In this document: one piece after another, positions 54,338 through 63,297 of the stretch | Position numbering within the stretch: the first letter of the stretch is position 1 | Layout: each line of letters starts with the position of its first letter | NCBI RefSeq assembly: GCF_020966775.1 | Contig: NZ_JAJKFV010000010.1 | Span: 124,001 to 188,000, forward strand | Origin: Rhodopirellula halodulae | Lineage (GTDB): Bacteria; Planctomycetota; Planctomycetia; Pirellulales; Pirellulaceae | DNA length: 64,000 bases | Reading direction: 5' to 3' | Notes under the pieces: generated by a model | Seen by the model: only the letters and a program-made list of their open reading frames with translations | Databases searched by the model: none | Told to the model about the DNA's origin: nothing | Position numbers and translations under genes: made by a program

Positions 54338-57300
54338 ATGATTCATCGTCAGCCTTCTCAACCATTGTCGGATTGGACTTCTCAAACCGATTCGGAGCAA
54401 ACATCCGACCGCGAAGCGGGCAAAGCACGCTCGAAACGCCGTCCGAGTCGACGTAGCAATCGCCTTCAGAAACGCCGCCTGATGATGGAAGGGCTGGAGA
54501 GTCGCCAACTGCTGGCCGCCGGCGGCGTGGTCCCCAGCGTTCCCGCTTTGGACGAATACGAAGGCCCACGCAACATTGGTGCCGTTGCCGCATTCCCAAT
54601 GACCGAAGTCGAAGGTCGTGGTGATCTAGGCGAGAACGATTTTGCAAACATTCGTGACTCAGAGTTCTTGCCGTTAGGGAACGGGGCTGGAAAGCGTGAC
54701 ACGATCGACCTGTCGGGAACGGCTGGTTTTGTTTCAGCGTCCTCAACCAGCTTCGAGACTGACATCGACGTTTATCGCTTCGATCTGGAAGCAGGCGACA
54801 TTCTGGACATCGCAACGCTCGGCGGCACTACATCTTTTACGGTGTATGGCCAAGCACGATTAGATGCCAATGGGAATGCCATCACTTATCCGGGTGAGGT
54901 ATCTGTCTTTGGCAGCCGTGCTTCGATCTGGTACGGGGTCGACGAACCGCAAGATACCTATCCTGCAAACTCGCCGTTGCAAACTTTGGGCAACGCGTAC
55001 TTTGCTCAAGTCGTTCCACAAACAGGTACCTACTACGTTGAGGTCGCGGCACAAGCGACCAATGTTGATTACACGCTTGGTCTTCGCACATACCGTCCGG
55101 TGACGGAAAGTTTGCCGGTCGGTCAGGCGCAAAAACTGTATCTGGACTTCGATGGCGGAACGTTCAACATCGATCGTTTCAACACGATTGCTGGTGGTGA
55201 CGGTGCTTTGCCAATCGGAGGTGTCTATCGGGTCCCGACGTTGCAGCAGACGTTGTTTGATCAAGGGGTTCAGGTCACCCCGGCTGAATACGAAAACTTG
55301 ATGCGAAACATCGTTGCCAATGTTGAGTCGCACTTCAACGCTGTCGCCAATGACGGCTTCAACGGTGACTATGAATCGACGGGAGTTCCCGGCGATTTCG
55401 GTATCGAAATTTTGAATAGCTTTGATCACGACGATCCAGGCAGTGATCCAAATGTGACTCGATTGGCTATTGGAGGAACGGAGGCCATCTTCAACTTTGT
55501 CGTGCCAGTCAATGGTGTGGCCGAGTCCGTTGATATCGGCAACTTCGACCTTCGTGAGACGGGCGTGTTGTTGCTCGACAACCTTCGTGCCACCGCGAAC
55601 TTGTTCCAGCGTAGCCCGGCTCTGAGTGAGTTTGATGCATTCGCTGCATCGATCGCAGCGACCGCCAGTCACGAAGCTGGGCACTTGTTCGGCCTACGTC
55701 ACACGAACAACGCCAACTTCACCGCGAACTTGATGGATTCGGGAGGGAACCTGCAAACGGTCTTTGATAGCCGAGTTGGAACCGGACCGGACCTGATCTT
55801 GGGTACGACTGATGATGTTCAAGTGAAGTTCGCGACGGATATCTTCGCACCAGCAGAAGGCATCTTTGGTGTGAACTACACCGGGCACGCGGCAGCATTC
55901 GCGTTGACAACGGGTACCGTTGGTACCTCCGCAACTGGGCGTGTTTTCAATGATGCGAATGGTAGCGGAACGTTCACCGGCGATTCGGGATTGGGTGGCG
56001 TCACCGTCTTCCTGGATGTCAACGGTGACGGTGTATTGAGCCCGGCGGATCCACGCAGTGTCACCGCTGCCGATGGAACGTACAGCCTGTTCGGTGCATC
56101 CGGTAGCTACAACGTGATCGCAGTCGCTCCGGATAACTTTGTGGCGACGACTTCGGTCAGCCGACCTGTCACATTGGGAAGCACCGGTGGCGTGTTGCCA
56201 AGCTTTGGTTTCCGACAAGTTCAGTCAGACGTTACCGGACGTAAGTTCGAAGACTTGAACGAGAACGGTTTCTACGACGCTGGTGAACCTGGCATCGAAG
56301 GTGCCTACATCTACGCTGACTTGGACGGCGATGACCGATTGGATTTGGGCGAACCGTTTGCCATCACTGATGAGAACGGTCTGTATTCACTGAACCTGCC
56401 CGACGTTTCTTATTCCTACGCCATTCGCGAAGTGGAAGAGGCTGGGTTTGAACGCACGGTGCCACTGACGGGCGAGTACATCGTCACGCCAGGCAGTGCA
56501 CCTGCGGACGATTTCAACTTCGGCGGTCGCTCGTCACTCGATTACGGGGATGCCCCCGATAGTTATGGAACGCTCAGTGCATCCGGTGGTGCCAGCCACG
56601 GCATCTTGGATGGTTTGACGCTTGGTGCCACCATCGACAGCGAAAACGATGGTCAACCTTCTGCGGACGCCACCGGCGATGGTGCGGACGAAGACGGCAT
56701 TCAGTTCACCGCTCCTTTGGTTCCCGGTACCACCAGCAGCGTTCAAGTCACCGTTAACAACTCGACAGGTGGGCAAGCCTATTTGCAAGGTTGGATCGAC
56801 GTCGATGGCAGCGGGACCTTTGAGTCCGATGAGTTGTTCATCAGCAACGAGGCATTGGCGTCCGGTGTTCACTCGGTGCCGGTCACCCTGCCGAGTTTCG
56901 CGTTGCCAGTGAGCGGATTGCTGGACACATTCGCTCGATTCCGTTTGAGCCAATCGACCAACGTTCCAGCAACCGGATTTGCTGAAACCGGTGAAGTCGA
57001 AGACTACGCGGTTCGAATCCTGAACAACGGCGATTTGGCAAACGACGACTCGGTCTCGGTGCCGCGAAACAGCCAAGGCTTCCCGATCGATGTGTTGGCA
57101 AACGATTTCAACTCGGCCGCCAACCCGCTGACCATCACCACACAGGGCACGGCAGCGACCCAAGGTGTCGTGACCATTAGCTCGGCAGCACCTGGGCAAC
57201 AAGTTTTGTTGTACACGCCGCCAAACAACTTCGTCGGCCAAGACACGATTCAGTACCGTGTCATCGACACCCAAGGAAATGTTGCGACGGCGACCGTCAG

Positions 57301-59515
57301 CGTGAACGTGACCTTCCAAACGGAAGACCCGATCGCATTGGATGACATCTATCGCATCCCCGCGAACGCGAATAGCAGCGGTGGTTTCCCACTGAACGTG
57401 TTGGACAACGACATCGCGTCGAGTGCTCCTGGTGGATTGACATTGGCGTCGGTCACCAATGGCACGGCTGGCGGCACCGTGGTGCTGACGCAGAACAACC
57501 AGTCGGTTCGCTACACACCGGCCCCTGGTTTCACCGGGTCTGAGCAGTTCATGTACACGGTTCAGGACAGTGAGAACAACTTCTCGACGGCGACGGTCAC
57601 CGTTTCGATCAATCCTGACGCCGATGCTGACGACTTGGCATCGTTCACGTTGGAAATTTTGGACGAAGTCAACGACACGCAACGTCCAACATTGCAACAA
57701 GGCGATATCTTCCGCCTGCGAGTCAGCGTGGACGACCTGCGAGCTTTGAATGCGTTTGAAGCTCAAGGCCTCGCGTCAGCCTTCATGGACATCTTGTACT
57801 CCAGCGAGTTGGTGACGACTGTCGACACCGACCTCAGCGATGCGTTCCCGTTTGACATCACTTTCGGACCCAAGTTCGAGACTCCGGGTAGCTTCCAGCT
57901 TGGAAACTCGCTGACGCCTGGTTTGCTGGACGAGGTCGGAGCCGCTCAGTCGATTTCGAATCTTTCGACCGTCAATGGTCCTGGCGAAGACGTTGCTTCG
58001 CATGTCGGCCCGACGGAACTGTTCACCGTGACCTTGCAAGCCATCGGTTCGGGAATCGCGGTCTTCCAAGCGGATCCTGCTGATGCAGCGATCAGCGAAA
58101 CGATCTTGATCGATGAGTCTTCGGCTTTGTCGTTCAGCCAAATTCGATACGGTTCGGTCGAGGTCTCGATCGCTCCCGCCGGTCCAGATTTCCCATCGGC
58201 ATTGGACGATTCCTATCCACTCGGACTGGATAGCAATGGTGCCACCATTTCCAGCAACTTCGAATCGGAATTGGATGTTCTGAACAACGATTTGTTGGGA
58301 ACCGGTGGCGAAGTCATCTCGTTCGAGATCAACCAAGGGGCAGCCAACGGTATCGCGATTGTTCGTGACAATGGCACTCCGAATGACCTGTCGGACGACT
58401 ACATCGGCTACACAGCCGACATCGGGTTCAACGGCTTTGACAGCTTCACTTATGTGACCACGGTTTCGAGCCCAACCTACGGCATCGTGACCAGCATCGC
58501 AGAAGTCACCTTGGTCGTCGGAGCCAACCAGAGCCCGTTGGCCCAGTTCGATTTTGAACTGGTCGACGAGTCGGGCAATCCGATCAATTCGGTTGCCGTT
58601 GGACAGCGATTCGGTGTCCGCATCAACGCGGAAGACCTGACGCAGTTCGATCCATACCCCGTGTTTGCGGGCTACCTGGACGTGCTGTATGACTCCGCCC
58701 GCATCGTCCCCTCGAACACCATCACCACCGATGAGTTTGGTTTCGATGTTGAGTTCGCGGACCAATTCAATGAACAATCCGCCGTTGGTGTGAACACCCG
58801 AGCTGGTTTGATCGACGAGTTTGGAACGCTTCGCAACGATTCGGGACAACCGGATCCAGGCGATGGTCCATCGTTTGCGACCTTGTTCTTCGAAGCCATT
58901 GCACCGGGAACGGCGACGGTCACAGGTTCACCTGCGGATCGCTTCCCATTCCAAGACACCTTGTTGGATGATCGCGACGAGCGAGTGGATCCGGCCCAAA
59001 TCGTTTACGACTCTCTGTCGTTCACCATCACCGGAAGCGGCGAGCCTCTGCAAAACGTGAACTTGCCAGCCGACGTGAACGGTGACAACTTGGTCACGGC
59101 CATCGACGCATTGCTGGTGATCAACGAATTGTCACGCTTGGATTCGGCCGCGGCCGGAGAACCTGGTGGAGCTGGAAATTCGGCCTTGTTCTATCACGAC
59201 GTCAATGGTGACAAACGTGTCAGTGCGTTGGACGCCCTGCGAGTGATCAACTACCTGAACGGCGATTCGGCCGCTGGCGAGCCTGTGGCTCCTGCGGCGG
59301 GTGAGCCGTTAAGCGGTGGGATCGAAACGTTGGCATCGGACTCCGATCAAGCCATCAGTGAATTGACCGGCGAGTCCAAAGTCCAGGGCGGAGCCTCAGC
59401 AACTCAAGACGCTGCCAATACAGGTGGCGTGGTGGTCAACGACTCGGATTCTGATTCCGAAGAAGACGATCTGTTGGATCTGCTGGCTGACGATGTCGCC
59501 GGTTTGTGGAGCTGA
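54338..59515 (+). CDS. Giant exported multidomain protein: metalloprotease, SdrD-like B repeats, cadherin-like, cohesin-like repeats, dockerin
   Basis: 1725 residues. Residues 1-55 hold a basic stretch ending MMEGLESRQLLAAGG, the planctomycete LEPRxLL-like export motif. A metzincin-type zinc site HEAGHLFGLRH is at 445-455. Two SdrD B-like domains (about 530-720) with Ca-binding DVNGDGVLS and DLDGDDRLD follow, then a DYGDAPDSYG...GEVEDY domain (about 735-890), two cadherin/Ig-like repeats (DVLANDFN; NVLDNDIAS), and two cohesin-like repeats (about 1100-1280 and 1405-1580). A dockerin type I pair (DVNGDNLVTAIDALLVINELS from 1579; DVNGDKRVSALDALRVINYL) and an acidic tail close it. Likely calcium-stabilised, cell-surface or secreted, and involved in proteolysis or adhesion. 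Confidence 0.9.
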   Translation: MIHRQPSQPLSDWTSQTDSEQTSDREAGKARSKRRPSRRSNRLQKRRLMMEGLESRQLLAAGGVVPSVPALDEYEGPRNIGAVAAFPMTEVEGRGDLGENDFANIRDSEFLPLGNGAGKRDTIDLSGTAGFVSASSTSFETDIDVYRFDLEAGDILDIATLGGTTSFTVYGQARLDANGNAITYPGEVSVFGSRASIWYGVDEPQDTYPANSPLQTLGNAYFAQVVPQTGTYYVEVAAQATNVDYTLGLRTYRPVTESLPVGQAQKLYLDFDGGTFNIDRFNTIAGGDGALPIGGVYRVPTLQQTLFDQGVQVTPAEYENLMRNIVANVESHFNAVANDGFNGDYESTGVPGDFGIEILNSFDHDDPGSDPNVTRLAIGGTEAIFNFVVPVNGVAESVDIGNFDLRETGVLLLDNLRATANLFQRSPALSEFDAFAASIAATASHEAGHLFGLRHTNNANFTANLMDSGGNLQTVFDSRVGTGPDLILGTTDDVQVKFATDIFAPAEGIFGVNYTGHAAAFALTTGTVGTSATGRVFNDANGSGTFTGDSGLGGVTVFLDVNGDGVLSPADPRSVTAADGTYSLFGASGSYNVIAVAPDNFVATTSVSRPVTLGSTGGVLPSFGFRQVQSDVTGRKFEDLNENGFYDAGEPGIEGAYIYADLDGDDRLDLGEPFAITDENGLYSLNLPDVSYSYAIREVEEAGFERTVPLTGEYIVTPGSAPADDFNFGGRSSLDYGDAPDSYGTLSASGGASHGILDGLTLGATIDSENDGQPSADATGDGADEDGIQFTAPLVPGTTSSVQVTVNNSTGGQAYLQGWIDVDGSGTFESDELFISNEALASGVHSVPVTLPSFALPVSGLLDTFARFRLSQSTNVPATGFAETGEVEDYAVRILNNGDLANDDSVSVPRNSQGFPIDVLANDFNSAANPLTITTQGTAATQGVVTISSAAPGQQVLLYTPPNNFVGQDTIQYRVIDTQGNVATATVSVNVTFQTEDPIALDDIYRIPANANSSGGFPLNVLDNDIASSAPGGLTLASVTNGTAGGTVVLTQNNQSVRYTPAPGFTGSEQFMYTVQDSENNFSTATVTVSINPDADADDLASFTLEILDEVNDTQRPTLQQGDIFRLRVSVDDLRALNAFEAQGLASAFMDILYSSELVTTVDTDLSDAFPFDITFGPKFETPGSFQLGNSLTPGLLDEVGAAQSISNLSTVNGPGEDVASHVGPTELFTVTLQAIGSGIAVFQADPADAAISETILIDESSALSFSQIRYGSVEVSIAPAGPDFPSALDDSYPLGLDSNGATISSNFESELDVLNNDLLGTGGEVISFEINQGAANGIAIVRDNGTPNDLSDDYIGYTADIGFNGFDSFTYVTTVSSPTYGIVTSIAEVTLVVGANQSPLAQFDFELVDESGNPINSVAVGQRFGVRINAEDLTQFDPYPVFAGYLDVLYDSARIVPSNTITTDEFGFDVEFADQFNEQSAVGVNTRAGLIDEFGTLRNDSGQPDPGDGPSFATLFFEAIAPGTATVTGSPADRFPFQDTLLDDRDERVDPAQIVYDSLSFTITGSGEPLQNVNLPADVNGDNLVTAIDALLVINELSRLDSAAAGEPGGAGNSALFYHDVNGDKRVSALDALRVINYLNGDSAAGEPVAPAAGEPLSGGIETLASDSDQAISELTGESKVQGGASATQDAANTGGVVVNDSDSDSEEDDLLDLLADDVAGLWS

Positions 59516-59621: not shown

Positions 59622-61001
59622 TCAGCGGACTTTGCACTGGAACTCGATGGTGACGGTCTCGCCGACAGCCAACTCTTCGCTCAAGGTCCAGACCAACTGA
59701 TCCGAGCCCGCTTGGTTGGGTTTCTTTTCGAAGTCGGCTTTCATCGAGGCCGATTGAGAATCCGCAACGTACTCCAGACGCGTGGTCAGGTTGTCGGTTA
59801 CCACGATGCCACTGACCGGTGAGTCACCAACATTCTGTAGTCGCAGAGCAAACGTGACCGTGTCTCCAATGGGAGCGTGTTGTCTGTCCGCCAACTTGAT
59901 TAGGTTCAGACGACCCGCCTCGGGGAAGTCATAGACGACCAATGCGTCGACTTTCTCATCGCGAGTCAGCGTTGGTGGCAAGACATCTTGGATTTCAACT
60001 TCGACGGATTCGTCGATCGCCCATTCCACGGCCGCGTTGGCGAATCGCTCGATCAAAGCCAATTGCGACTCATCCAGTTGCGAGAGGCTGAGTCGGCGAA
60101 TATTGGCCAGCAGTGCAAGCACGTCCTCGGCAACTTCGATCTGCTGAACGTTCTCAACGGGCACACCGCGATTGCGGTCACGCATCGCATCCACACGCCG
60201 CGTCAGTTCGCTGTGACCAAGTTCGGTGGTGTCGGTCATGACCAACCCCGGCAGGTCCAGGTCGACGCCCTTGGGCCCGACGGGTTGAAAGGTACCGCCG
60301 ACGGTGATGGAGCGATCGTTTTGGATGGCTCCCGTGATACGTCGGACCGATGCGAAACGTGGTGAGTAAACGCACACACGGTTGGAGGCGGCAAATTCGA
60401 TGTCGCCGGCTTCCGTGGTGTAGTGAGTCACGGTGTCTTCGGGTTGCAATCCAGCGATCACATCGCCGCGTGTCAGAACGGCTTCTGGATCGTGGTCGCC
60501 CCCGTCGCAAAGAAACTCCTGCGGATCGACTCCCCACGGTGCCCGCATCATGGGCACCATCGGTGCGGGCTGACACGCCACACAATCACCCGCGGAGACA
60601 TTGCAGTCACCGCCGCATGCCGCGCTGCCGCAACCGCAGGCGATTCGGTCGCGAAAACCGACTTGGGCGACCGAGCTTTCGGCAACGTTGAGCATCGGGT
60701 TCTTTGTTTGATTGATCGCCGGATGAGTGTTCTCGTACAGCGAATGCAAATCGAGTGAATCCGTCTTTGGCGATCCAGTCACGCTGGCCGGCGAAGGCAG
60801 GCTTGATTGCGGCGCATGCATGTTGGCGGCTTGTGAGTTGGCCACCGGATTCGCCGGAGCGACGGGTGGAACCACAGGTGTCGCGCACCCAAACGTGGTG
60901 AAAGCAATCACCACCATCAACGCCCAGGCAACAACGTCAGTGCACGTTGAGGTTTGCGGCGATCGATTCGCGGTGAGTGCGATGTCAGCGAGTTGTTTCA
61001 T
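59622..61001 (-). CDS. Exported DUF11-type envelope protein
   Basis: 459 residues. The N-terminal hydrophobic stretch WALMVVIAFTTFGCA ends with a lipobox-like Cys, suggesting a lipoprotein. A proline/alanine-rich linker follows, then a Cys-rich patch QVGFRDRIACGCGSAACGGDC. Next is a central region with EFLCDGGDHDPEA and a helical part (EDVLALLANIRRLSLSQLDESQLALIERFANAAV). A C-terminal DUF11 domain (about 345-459) contains HAPIGDTVTFALRLQNVGDSPVSGIVVTDNLT, typical of bacterial surface-layer-type repeats. The ATG overlaps the stop of the upstream gene by four bases. Confidence 0.8.
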   Translation of the reverse strand: MKQLADIALTANRSPQTSTCTDVVAWALMVVIAFTTFGCATPVVPPVAPANPVANSQAANMHAPQSSLPSPASVTGSPKTDSLDLHSLYENTHPAINQTKNPMLNVAESSVAQVGFRDRIACGCGSAACGGDCNVSAGDCVACQPAPMVPMMRAPWGVDPQEFLCDGGDHDPEAVLTRGDVIAGLQPEDTVTHYTTEAGDIEFAASNRVCVYSPRFASVRRITGAIQNDRSITVGGTFQPVGPKGVDLDLPGLVMTDTTELGHSELTRRVDAMRDRNRGVPVENVQQIEVAEDVLALLANIRRLSLSQLDESQLALIERFANAAVEWAIDESVEVEIQDVLPPTLTRDEKVDALVVYDFPEAGRLNLIKLADRQHAPIGDTVTFALRLQNVGDSPVSGIVVTDNLTTRLEYVADSQSASMKADFEKKPNQAGSDQLVWTLSEELAVGETVTIEFQCKVR

Positions 61002-61783
61002 GATTCTGGCTTGAAGATGGGAGCCCACGTGGGGTAGCCAAAGAAGAACTGAGGTGCGAGTTCTGGCGAGCGAGGCGGTGCCAGCGAACCAATGCGAAGG
61101 ATCGCGACGACTCGTCCCAGACGATCAGCCACTTGCAACGGATCTTGGAACTGGGACACGTCGATCGGCGTTTCGCCACCCACATCGGATTTGGTCGTTG
61201 GCTCTTGAGCCAAAGGCACGGCGGTTTGCGGATCTTCCAGGTAGATCACGCGAGTGACCAGTTGACCGTCGAGAGCCGCCTGCAGATCTTCTTCATCGAT
61301 GGTGACGATGATGGGGTACTGCGTGGCAAGTCCTGGAGGCGGATAGGTTCGGTCCACCATTTCCAGCGTTGGAAACAGTTCCGCACCTTCGGCACCGCGG
61401 ATGCCTGAAATTTGAAAGCGGTAGACCTGTCCGACGAGCAAGCCCGCCATCAATCCAGGTTGAGGATCCTGGAAAGCACCCATTTGCGGCAAGGCAAACC
61501 GTACACCTTGCGGGCCGCGAATTTGAACGGGTTGGTAATAAGGAGCCTGCACATCCATGGCGGCGGTTCCGCCGGGGCCAGCCATTTGTCGCGTGGCGGC
61601 GATGACTCCGGGAGGCATCGCGCCGTTGAACAAACGGTGCTGACCGTTGGACGAGAGATACTGCGACGGATCGGCGGCGGTGGCCAATGAGTTCGTCAGC
61701 AGCAGGCCGGCGATGGCGAGCGATGACAGGCACGCTCGAGCGGTCAGCCGTTTGCCGGGCGAAAGGTTGCGAGTGATCGCCAT
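60998..61783 (-). CDS. Exported envelope protein, paralogue of the 441-aa neighbour
   Basis: 261 residues from the ATG at 61783 (271 from 61813). A signal peptide (RLTARACLSSLAIAGLLLTNSLATAADP) directs export. The beta-rich core shares a clear block order with the upstream gene: VYRFQISGI...GAELFPTLEMVD, IIVTIDEEDLQAALDGQLVTRVIYLEDPQ and VADRLGRVVAILRIGSL. Function unknown. It is the middle gene of a three-gene minus-strand cluster and overlaps the following gene by four bases. The 61783 start gives the shorter signal peptide; either is possible. Confidence 0.8.
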   Translation of the reverse strand: MAITRNLSPGKRLTARACLSSLAIAGLLLTNSLATAADPSQYLSSNGQHRLFNGAMPPGVIAATRQMAGPGGTAAMDVQAPYYQPVQIRGPQGVRFALPQMGAFQDPQPGLMAGLLVGQVYRFQISGIRGAEGAELFPTLEMVDRTYPPPGLATQYPIIVTIDEEDLQAALDGQLVTRVIYLEDPQTAVPLAQEPTTKSDVGGETPIDVSQFQDPLQVADRLGRVVAILRIGSLAPPRSPELAPQFFFGYPTWAPIFKPES

Positions 61784-61828
61784 GGGATCCATCCAGTTGC
61801 AACGTTGATTCATCAGGGCTGTAACGAT

Positions 61829-61856
61829 GCGGTGCTTTGCCGAAACAAAGCACCGC
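61829..61856. other. Perfect 11-bp intercistronic hairpin
   Basis: GCGGTGCTTTG (61829-61839) pairs with CAAAGCACCGC (61846-61856) around a six-base loop. No T run follows on either strand, so it is not a classic terminator. It may be an mRNA processing or stability element between two co-directional genes. Confidence 0.75.
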
Positions 61857-61872
61857 GTCGCGAATTCAACAG

Positions 61873-61919
61873 GACCGATCGAGGCGGACGTCCGGGTAAC
61901 GAGTCGCCGTCGATCGGTC
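61873..61919. other. Second intercistronic inverted repeat
   Basis: GACCGATCGA (61873-61882) and TCGATCGGTC (61910-61919) are perfectly complementary, with a partly pairable interior. It stands 16 bases from the 11-bp hairpin. Together they make the whole gap between the two paralogous genes highly structured. Confidence 0.7.
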
Positions 61920-61971
61920 GCTAGTCATGACTGACTTTCCAAAGAAACGTTTCTGATCAGCGAGGCTGAGA

Positions 61972-63297
61972 TCAGTAGACGCCTTGGCTGGCCTTGTCGT
62001 AGTGAGGACGGCCGTTTGGAATGCCAGGGTTGATGTTCTGCTCGGTGATCCGGATACGGCTGACCGGGTTGGGGTAGCTCATGCCGGGTTGTTGGCGAAC
62101 ATCGATTTTCAATTTCTCGACAGGTCGTGGAATGTTCATGTGAGTGTGGTTGCGAATCACATGCTTCTTCAGACCGGCTGGAGCACCCAATGGAATGTGA
62201 GGTGGTCCGGGCAATCCGATGGGCGTGCCGGTGTGAGGCATGCCGTACTGAGGAGCATTCACTCCCGCGATCATTCCGGGCAGTCCCATGGGAGTGCCTG
62301 CCTTGCCGTTGGCTGGTCCGCCGCATCCGTCGGTCATGGCGGGGGCGAAAGGAGCGGGCAATCCAGCGATGGGTGGGCTCATCATGCCGCCCATGGCCAT
62401 GCCACCAGCCATCTCGATGTCTTTGTCACCCAAGCGGATGATGGCCAGGATGCTTCCGCGACGATCGGCTTCGACGATTGGGTCGATGCCTGGATCGAGG
62501 CGAGTGCTGACCAAGGTATCGATACCGGCCAAAGCGGGGCCTTGGAACTCGGGATCTGGTAGGTAAATGACTTTGGTCACGAAGTTGCCGGTCAAGACTT
62601 GGTCGAAGTCTTCTTCGGTGAATTGAACAGGCACCGAGTTGTGAGCCAAGTAAGCACCGGTCCGTGGGTTGGCATAAGCCAGTTCAACGGTTGGGTACAA
62701 TTCCACACCGGGACGGCTAGGAATGTTGGTCAACTTCAAGCGATACAGACCGCCCTGAGGGAAGTTCTGACGAGCGGGAACCACGAGTGGCTCGCTGTCA
62801 AACATGCCTGCACCGGAGGAGTCATATCGCACTTGCATGCCGTCGGGGTTGCCGAAGGTGACTTGCGCGGTGGAAACCATGCCGGGCATCATTCCCGCGG
62901 GCGGCATCATGGTGACGCCACCGCCAGGAGGAATGTTGGATCCGCCACCGAGGCAACCATCGTTGCATCCGCCGCCGATGGGTTGGCGGAATCCAACTTG
63001 TTGAATGGCTGGGTTGTCTTGACCAGCCTTGGCAATCTTCGAAGGAACTTCACCCATGACACCATCGATGGCGCCTTCGGTGATCATGCCTTCGGTGCCA
63101 GCTGCGGCGGCGGGAGCGTTGGCTCCCATCATGCCATAGGCCGGTGGTCCCAAAACGCCGGGGCCGGGGCCACCAACGCCAGGGCCAGGTTGCATCATCC
63201 GCTGTTCCGGTGGCAGGTTGTGGCGAACCGGCACACATCCGGTGGCGAGGATCGCCGTGGCCGCCGCGAGCGCCAAATGAGTGACGATTCGTTTCAT
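61972..63297 (-). CDS. Lipoprotein-like envelope protein rich in Gly, Pro and Met
   Basis: 441 residues. The N-terminus (KRIVTHLALAAATAILATGC) is a lipoprotein signal with Cys21. Low-complexity Gly/Pro/Met stretches flank a Cys-bearing patch QVGFRQPIGGGCNDGC, which is similar to one in the DUF11-type protein two genes downstream. The core (about 165-310) is the shared domain: GLYRLKLTNIPSRPGVELYPTVELA, VQFTEEDFDQVLTGNFVTKVIYLPD and VEADRRGSILAIIRLGD. The end is basic with VSRIRITEQNINPGIPNG. It is the first gene of the three-gene cluster and probably lies in the envelope. Function unknown. Confidence 0.82.
   Translation of the reverse strand: MKRIVTHLALAAATAILATGCVPVRHNLPPEQRMMQPGPGVGGPGPGVLGPPAYGMMGANAPAAAAGTEGMITEGAIDGVMGEVPSKIAKAGQDNPAIQQVGFRQPIGGGCNDGCLGGGSNIPPGGGVTMMPPAGMMPGMVSTAQVTFGNPDGMQVRYDSSGAGMFDSEPLVVPARQNFPQGGLYRLKLTNIPSRPGVELYPTVELAYANPRTGAYLAHNSVPVQFTEEDFDQVLTGNFVTKVIYLPDPEFQGPALAGIDTLVSTRLDPGIDPIVEADRRGSILAIIRLGDKDIEMAGGMAMGGMMSPPIAGLPAPFAPAMTDGCGGPANGKAGTPMGLPGMIAGVNAPQYGMPHTGTPIGLPGPPHIPLGAPAGLKKHVIRNHTHMNIPRPVEKLKIDVRQQPGMSYPNPVSRIRITEQNINPGIPNGRPHYDKASQGVY

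Follow-up and report, generated by a model that had tools for sequence, protein, structure and literature searches.

This locus raises the question of why one protein should carry both halves of a cohesin-dockerin pair together with a protease. A sequence-only reading of the window, by which we mean the whole stretch of 64,000 nucleotides that was analysed, had described cohesin-like repeats, a dockerin and a metalloprotease in one exported chain, and as a whole this observation is confirmed. Its premise that cohesins and dockerins usually occur in different proteins holds only in part, since a scaffoldin may contain both modules, according to the sections considered here of two papers (PMC11557425 and, for an adaptor of 2019, PMC6461901). 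We will argue, with even confidence, that this gene encodes an adaptor scaffoldin, secreted and dependent on calcium, which carries its own protease.

The open reading frame runs on the plus strand from an ATG at 54338 to 59515, stop included, and encodes 1725 amino acids; all features given below lie on the same strand. Above the Pfam cut-offs it matches Planc_extracel, SdrD_B, GEVED, Big_9 and the type I dockerin, and below them PPC and several metzincin families. The Planc_extracel motif near the N-terminus (the GLESRQLLA region, aa 44-62, 54467..54523; PF07595, E 1.1e-6) is followed by a PPC-like beta domain (aa 121-253, 54698..55096; PF04151, weak and below the cut-off at E 0.0057) and then by the peptidase-like head. 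Next come two SdrD_B modules (aa 529-731, 55922..56530; PF17210, E 2e-8), a GEVED module (aa 732-898, 56531..57031, its limits set by alignment; PF20009, E 5.4e-10 at aa 815-892) and two Big_9 Ig-like modules (aa 899-1093, 57032..57616; PF17963, E 5.9e-23). The third of the three Big_9 stretches found by Pfam lies between the two cohesin-like modules (aa 1283-1396, 58184..58525). Behind the dockerin the chain ends in an acidic tail (aa 1646-1725, 59273..59512) that contains 18 acidic residues, 1 basic residue and a pair of GEP motifs. Promoter and terminator scans returned nothing beyond what shuffled sequence gives.

Peptidase domain matches occur in 36 of 100 genomes of the bacterial family. 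The initial set comprised 27 peptidase loci. In 26 of them the gene is full-length and colinear with ours (1665-1849 aa), and these 26, selected for being full-length, are the aligned relatives referred to throughout. All 11 modules from the PPC-like domain to the dockerin, the third Big_9 included, are covered in each of them (26/26). Because the module order is conserved in relatives, a chance arrangement is excluded. The closest named relative is Rhodopirellula europaea, at 85% identity, which makes a Rhodopirellula the probable source of the window. The order does admit reduction: L069, the 27th locus, and the later-fetched L184, L189 and L204 have a single cohesin-like module and retain the head, GEVED, Big_9 and dockerin. 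The surroundings of the gene are poorly kept, since besides the close relative L004 the neighbouring kinase gene is found in only 2 of the 25 relatives, and none of them has any of the five further neighbours tested. Three consecutive minus-strand genes at 59622-63297, of which one has a DUF11 domain and the others match no Pfam family, adjoin the gene in only one of the 26, the closest relative.

The claim that the chain is exported holds in a qualified form. It rests on the Planc_extracel motif, whose residues R46, E51, L53, E54, R56 and A60 are at least 95% conserved among the 27 aligned sequences, and from this motif we conclude that the 1725-residue protein is probably exported. The hydrophobicity maximum over 15-residue windows within the first 90 residues is 1.4, in our view less than a classical signal peptide would need.

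The dockerin, a type I module (aa 1571-1645, 59048..59272), matches PF00404 at aa 1578-1641 with E 1.4e-15 and 57.7 bits against a cut-off of 22.9. Its two 20-residue repeats are identical at 14 of 20 positions. Each contains a calcium loop (aa 1579-1590 and 1621-1632), and loop positions 1, 5 and 12 are Asp in all 27 sequences for both repeats, except position 5 of the second repeat (26/27). The identification as a dockerin is borne out by the Pfam match and these ligands, and the loops would be expected to bind calcium. The mention of calcium-binding repeats likewise fits, on sequence, both the loops and the Asp-rich SdrD_B modules. The distance from the final strand of the second cohesin-like module to the first dockerin loop is only some 10-15 residues.

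A phased GE/EGE motif occurs before, within and after dockerins, and in the window it lies at 59036-59308. Over 75 dockerin proteins, 25 of them orthologues of the present one, there are 98 EGE in the 10,300 residues within 30 residues of a dockerin versus 38 in the 97,395 residues elsewhere. In the protein's own genome alone, a broader GE motif was counted 10 times in 1,889 residues near dockerins versus 24 times in 18,744. The codons of the motif are mixed synonymous ones.

The harder question is whether the two modules before the dockerin are cohesins at all. Module 1 covers aa 1098-1282 (57629..58183) and module 2 aa 1397-1568 (58526..59041). The Pfam cohesin model PF00963 gives no match in the protein at its curated cut-off, and when the modules are scanned alone module 1 matches nothing and module 2 only Wzt_C, weakly, at E 0.12. 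Across relatives, weak PF00963 matches come up in 3 of the 54 copies of the modules (module 1 in 1/27, E 0.028; module 2 in 2/27, best E 0.01). Rival weak matches in module copies are Harpin, EBNA2_N and Big_1 (the last in 2 copies, E 0.02), and one copy matches a phage minor capsid family at E 0.0013, better than any cohesin match. Pfam makes no clear case for a cohesin.

Two indirect tests support the cohesin assignment, the first of them profile comparison. With each module aligned across 27 sequences, modules 1 and 2 prove homologous to each other (31% identity; profile-profile E 4.5e-49). The two profiles were also compared by hhalign with Pfam-cohesin sequences from the same bacterial family, for which 26 of the 30 fetched were used (L084, L090, L094 and L104 were left out because the match place was uncertain or at a contig edge). 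Module 1 scores 92.5% (E 5e-7) and module 2 71.3% (E 3.6e-5), these E-values being single-comparison values. The PPC, metzincin, two SdrD_B, GEVED and three Big_9 modules, used as controls, score at most 0.4%, and the dockerin 3.8%. The comparison points to homology with true cohesins, and for module 2 it is supportive rather than decisive.

The second is a fold search with a model of module 1, in which cohesins lead but other sandwiches come close. Profile searches of the PDB with modules 1 and 2 returned no chain at E <=10. An AlphaFold model of module 1, built from four alignment rows, was fair in only one of five runs, with a mean pLDDT of 64.8 and a pTM of 0.70; the remaining four had pLDDT 38-48. 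Foldseek places the Ruminococcus cohesin 5lxv at the top (E 2.6e-6, a modest TM-score of 0.44, rmsd 8.2), and cohesins account, by title, for 22 of its 40 matches at E <=0.001. VIA places the Clostridium perfringens cohesin 2vo8 at the top (Z 11.1, rmsd 3.3, 128 residues aligned), with cohesins, again by title, in 28 of the 50 rows shown; pilin, PrgB and antigen I/II domains come within 1-2 Z of the top row, with 8beg at Z 10.5. A model of module 2 was set aside, as its pLDDT was 48.7 and nothing in the PDB matched it at E <=0.001. Because of the profile comparison against flat controls and the fold search with module 1, we believe it likely, but not proven, that both modules are divergent cohesins. 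The description of them as cohesin-like repeats therefore has the support of these two results but not of a Pfam call.

The head (aa 254-528, 55097..55921) is metzincin-like. Reprolysin_5 is found weakly in 25 of 27 family members (best E 1.1e-4), and other metzincin Pfam families match weakly as well. The best hit of a PDB profile search is the metalloproteinase 1kug, at E 0.005 and over the zinc-site region only. The zinc protease site that had been claimed is indeed there, as an HExxHxxGxxH motif reading HEAGHLFGLRH at aa 445-455 (55670..55702). His445, Glu446 and His455 are conserved in 26 of 27 sequences and His449 in all 27. A Met-turn reads NLMD in the window protein; its Met is present in 10 of 27 and the following Asp in 27 of 27, in a column picked by alignment. 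One relative, L036 in genome G037, has QQAAHMFGMRV in place of the zinc motif with the rest of the chassis intact, and its head is likely a dead protease. Given the Met at 10 of 27 and one head lacking three of the zinc-motif residues, protease activity may not be universal in these proteins.

The distribution of the module was compared with that of dockerins. A profile built from 34 copies of the module (A7) matches in 83 of 100 family genomes, dockerins in 86 and Pfam cohesins in 25. The module and the dockerin occur together in 83 genomes, the dockerin only in 3, the module only in none and neither in 14 (Fisher 1.5e-14), an association weakened by shared descent and by shared chains, many modules (26 of 44 ORFs) being in one chain with a dockerin. 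By genus, dockerins are found in 59 of 68 and the module in 56 of 68. Pfam cohesins and dockerins in the same 100 genomes give 23 with both, 63 with dockerin only, 2 with cohesin only and 12 with neither (p 0.51). The 44 ORFs are the module-bearing ones outside the orthologue set, drawn from 40 loci at the top of the A7 list together with L057 and L069. Eighteen of them lack a dockerin; a single module is present in 17 of these and two modules in the other, and one of the 18 runs up to the edge of the sequence retrieved. Three combine four modules with a dockerin.

Across the phylum the picture is different. Of 199 phylum genomes only 3 match A7, two of these within the family, and 71 have a dockerin, nearly always without the module. 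The idea that the module is a general planctomycete partner for dockerins is not supported by these counts. Within the family, a divergent cohesin class present in 83 of 100 genomes could supply the missing partner for dockerins that look orphaned.

The GEVED-Big_9-cohesin-dockerin chassis also bears other heads. A GEVED-Big_9 profile (A9), cut at an arbitrary E 2.2e-66, finds 67 places in 63 of 100 genomes, single in 59 of them; a true chassis in G008 falls just under the cut and 79 genomes match at 1e-40. The heads of the 67 are metzincin in 34, subtilase S8 in 16, fungalysin M36 in 5 (one partial), a shared head of about 450 residues in 7 and other or unreadable in 5. The metzincin count takes in G098 and G082 by way of a shared open frame, and G025, whose presumed head is on another contig than its chassis. 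The last five comprise a head with Sortilin/BNR matches, a frame that is broken, one truncated where its contig stops and two without an assigned family. Pfam names S8 in 5 of 5 S8-type heads scanned and M36 in 3 of 3; the remaining assignments were made by motifs, BLAST grouping or HMMs built in this analysis. The serine motif sought is missing from L200, one of the S8-type heads. The shared head of about 450 residues is carried by L140, L142, L145, L173, L195, L197 and L199, and Pfam scans of the heads of L140, L145, L173, L197 and the first ORF of L185 named no head domain.

A quick tree from joined pieces of 59 chassis (31 metzincin, 16 S8, 7 with the shared head, 5 M36) needs 12 head changes, where the minimum possible is 3 and the shuffled mean 25.0. 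Of its 56 inner branches 13 are weak; the strongly supported ones alone require 4 for metzincin, 4 for S8 and 3 for each of the other head types. The 12 changes argue that, as far as these sequences can be read, proteases of different families came to be joined time and again to a similar cohesin-dockerin end, whether the heads were swapped or the parts of the chassis were shuffled. A strict rule of one protease head per genome was considered and dropped, as G050 and G063 each carry a metzincin and an S8 chassis; it is a tendency only.

Scaffoldin-like gene arrays occur in other genomes. Four-module ORFs ending in a dockerin lie beside same-strand dockerin genes at three loci, in G048, G068 and G016. 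In G048 and G068 the same-strand array consists of a frame of more than 4000 residues ending in GEVED-dockerin, a dockerin protein of about 900 residues, a four-module-dockerin protein and a dockerin-Big_9 protein. The array in G016 has the last two of these, and G099 has a related array with a shorter scaffold. We take these arrays to resemble the clusters of scaffoldin and dockerin genes in bacteria with cellulosomes. The scaffoldin-like clusters are found at loci L148, L149, L164 and L175-L180. The suggestion of a protease scaffold is strengthened by the three protease families on a similar chassis, the 12 head changes and the scaffoldin-like genes next to dockerin genes in three genomes; the earlier interpretation overall is partly supported.

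The protein's own genome has 20 dockerin matches, three module copies and three Pfam cohesins above the cut-off (two in a lighter search). Three ORFs with Pfam-type cohesins are clustered at L055 (C7:158-162 kb), and these cohesins are possible partners for the genome's own dockerins. In 12 dockerin proteins scanned there were two haem peroxidases, one matrixin and one 5'-nucleotidase C-terminal domain. The haem peroxidases, at L063 and L065, are of animal type and have their dockerin directly after the Planc_extracel motif; the matrixin with a dockerin adjoins one of them. The ORF at L057 (3216-7874) encodes a cyclophilin-type isomerase that looks exported and has Big_9 repeats and a single cohesin-like module but no dockerin, this being the one ORF checked for the isomerase domain out of the 17 dockerin-free ones with a single module.

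The scenario we favor is as follows. The metzincin-like N-terminal head would cleave protein outside the cell, and the SdrD_B, GEVED and Big_9 modules would make up a stalk. The two cohesin-like modules would be sockets for dockerin-tagged exported proteins, of which the genome encodes about 20, and the C-terminal dockerin would be a plug into the cohesin of another protein. An adaptor scaffoldin has several cohesins and a dockerin in an exported chain; here the dockerin is present and there are two cohesin-like modules whose fold is not proven. What the sequences show directly is the gene with its modules, their conservation, the variety of heads on a similar chassis and the scaffoldin-like clusters of relatives; that the protein is exported, binds calcium and dockerins, cuts protein and assembles in trans we infer. 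The chassis, kept while its proteases are swapped, suggests a snap-together extracellular protease scaffold. We hold somewhat more tentatively, at a little under even confidence, that the family has a cohesin class of its own, missed by Pfam, which takes up its many exported proteins with dockerin tags, and as central adaptor a mostly single-copy, protease-bearing chassis whose head (metzincin, subtilase or fungalysin) has been repeatedly swapped while the socket-and-plug end was retained.

The most serious objection is that the cohesin-like modules are beta-sandwich spacers that bind no dockerin, module 2 being something like an X-module that stabilizes the dockerin next to it, so that the dockerin alone docks, onto a Pfam cohesin. 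Module 2 sits directly before the dockerin in 25 of 25 orthologues scanned, the same adjacency recurs in 18 of the 44 other ORFs, and in L181, which comes from the sole module-bearing genome of the phylum that lies outside the family, it is again beside a dockerin. The three Pfam cohesins of the own genome could serve as the partner, and pilin-type sandwiches do score near cohesins in Z. Yet module 1 does not adjoin a dockerin, nor do the majority of modules in the four-module ORFs; 18 of the 44 ORFs have no dockerin at all, and Pfam cohesins do not track dockerins in the 100 genomes. We consider the spacer explanation unlikely, though it deserves to be taken seriously.

A further possibility, in line with the self-assembly into a surface network suggested by the sequence-only reading, is that the chain closes on itself, with the dockerin binding a cohesin-like module of its own or an identical molecule to form linear or networked homopolymers. 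Both partners are indeed in one chain in all 26 aligned relatives. However, the short spacing makes docking on the chain's own neighboring module 2 unlikely because it leaves little room, and 18 of the 44 other ORFs carry the module with no dockerin. Self-assembly by way of module 1 or between molecules is possible, and as an account of the protein we find it rather improbable. More improbable still is that the protein is nothing more than a large adhesin or exported protease of the usual planctomycete sort, its dockerin serving only as a tag for surface attachment or sorting and its beta modules as generic spacers. In favor of this, exported-looking proteins of the own genome carry dockerins at one end or the other, in several cases immediately behind the N-terminal motif, and a GE-rich motif surrounds dockerins. 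Against it stand the calcium ligands kept in both repeats, the match of the modules to the cohesin profile with flat controls, and the scaffoldin-like clusters. If the adaptor scaffoldin is the right answer, it would be a case of cohesin-dockerin assembly put to proteolytic use, in which the enzyme is built onto the scaffold and can be replaced in the course of evolution, and it would offer a natural template for modular protease display.

Parts of this arrangement have precedents. In the literature on planctomycete cohesins, dockerins and peptidases, as far as freely available texts go, neither the module family nor the head swapping was found. Kelp planctomycetes with many dockerins have been interpreted as cellulosome-bearing, in the sections considered of that report (PMC5264255). 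The cellulosome-like complex of Ca. Stygibacter (Cloacimonadota) has, in the parts of its description used here, dockerins on S8/S53 and C25 peptidases and a scaffoldin with tandem cohesins, but scaffold and peptidases are separate chains and the scaffoldin bears a CBM (PMC8542988). The noncellulosomal C. perfringens cohesins 2vo8, 2w1n and 2jh2 are among the six best VIA matches of module 1. Two of them, 2vo8 and 2w1n, come from glycoside hydrolases and so lie inside an enzyme chain as here, although the chains differ in being glycoside hydrolases and identity to module 1 is 16-18%. A further precedent is a ScaO-like scaffoldin of Acetivibrio mesophilus, which according to the passages considered has an S8-peptidase-like domain and a C-terminal Coh1-Doc1 (PMC11557425). 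It shares the peptidase-like domain and the adjacent cohesin-dockerin pair in a single chain, but belongs to a cellulosome, has FN3 repeats and a galactose-oxidase-like domain, and is described there without a GEVED/Big_9 chassis.

A planctomycete precedent is the planctosome, proposed in 2019 for the freshwater Nemodlikiaceae as a non-cellulosomal, peptide-degrading assembly with a dockerin and cohesin adaptor. In the sections considered here, it resembles our protein in having an adaptor chain with both dockerin and cohesin and zinc peptidases (M12B reprolysin-like) as its cargo (PMC6461901). Its set consists of cohesin, dockerin, peptidase and a lamin-tail-domain anchor; cohesin-like, dockerin and peptidase-like parts are seen here. 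There, on the same portion of the source, the peptidases dock onto a separate adaptor and anchor, whereas here the protease is within the adaptor chain, and the present chain, from another bacterial family, has two cohesin-like modules of a kind that Pfam misses (PMC6461901). By analogy with what is described there, we regard the present protein as related in logic to the proposed planctosome (PMC6461901).
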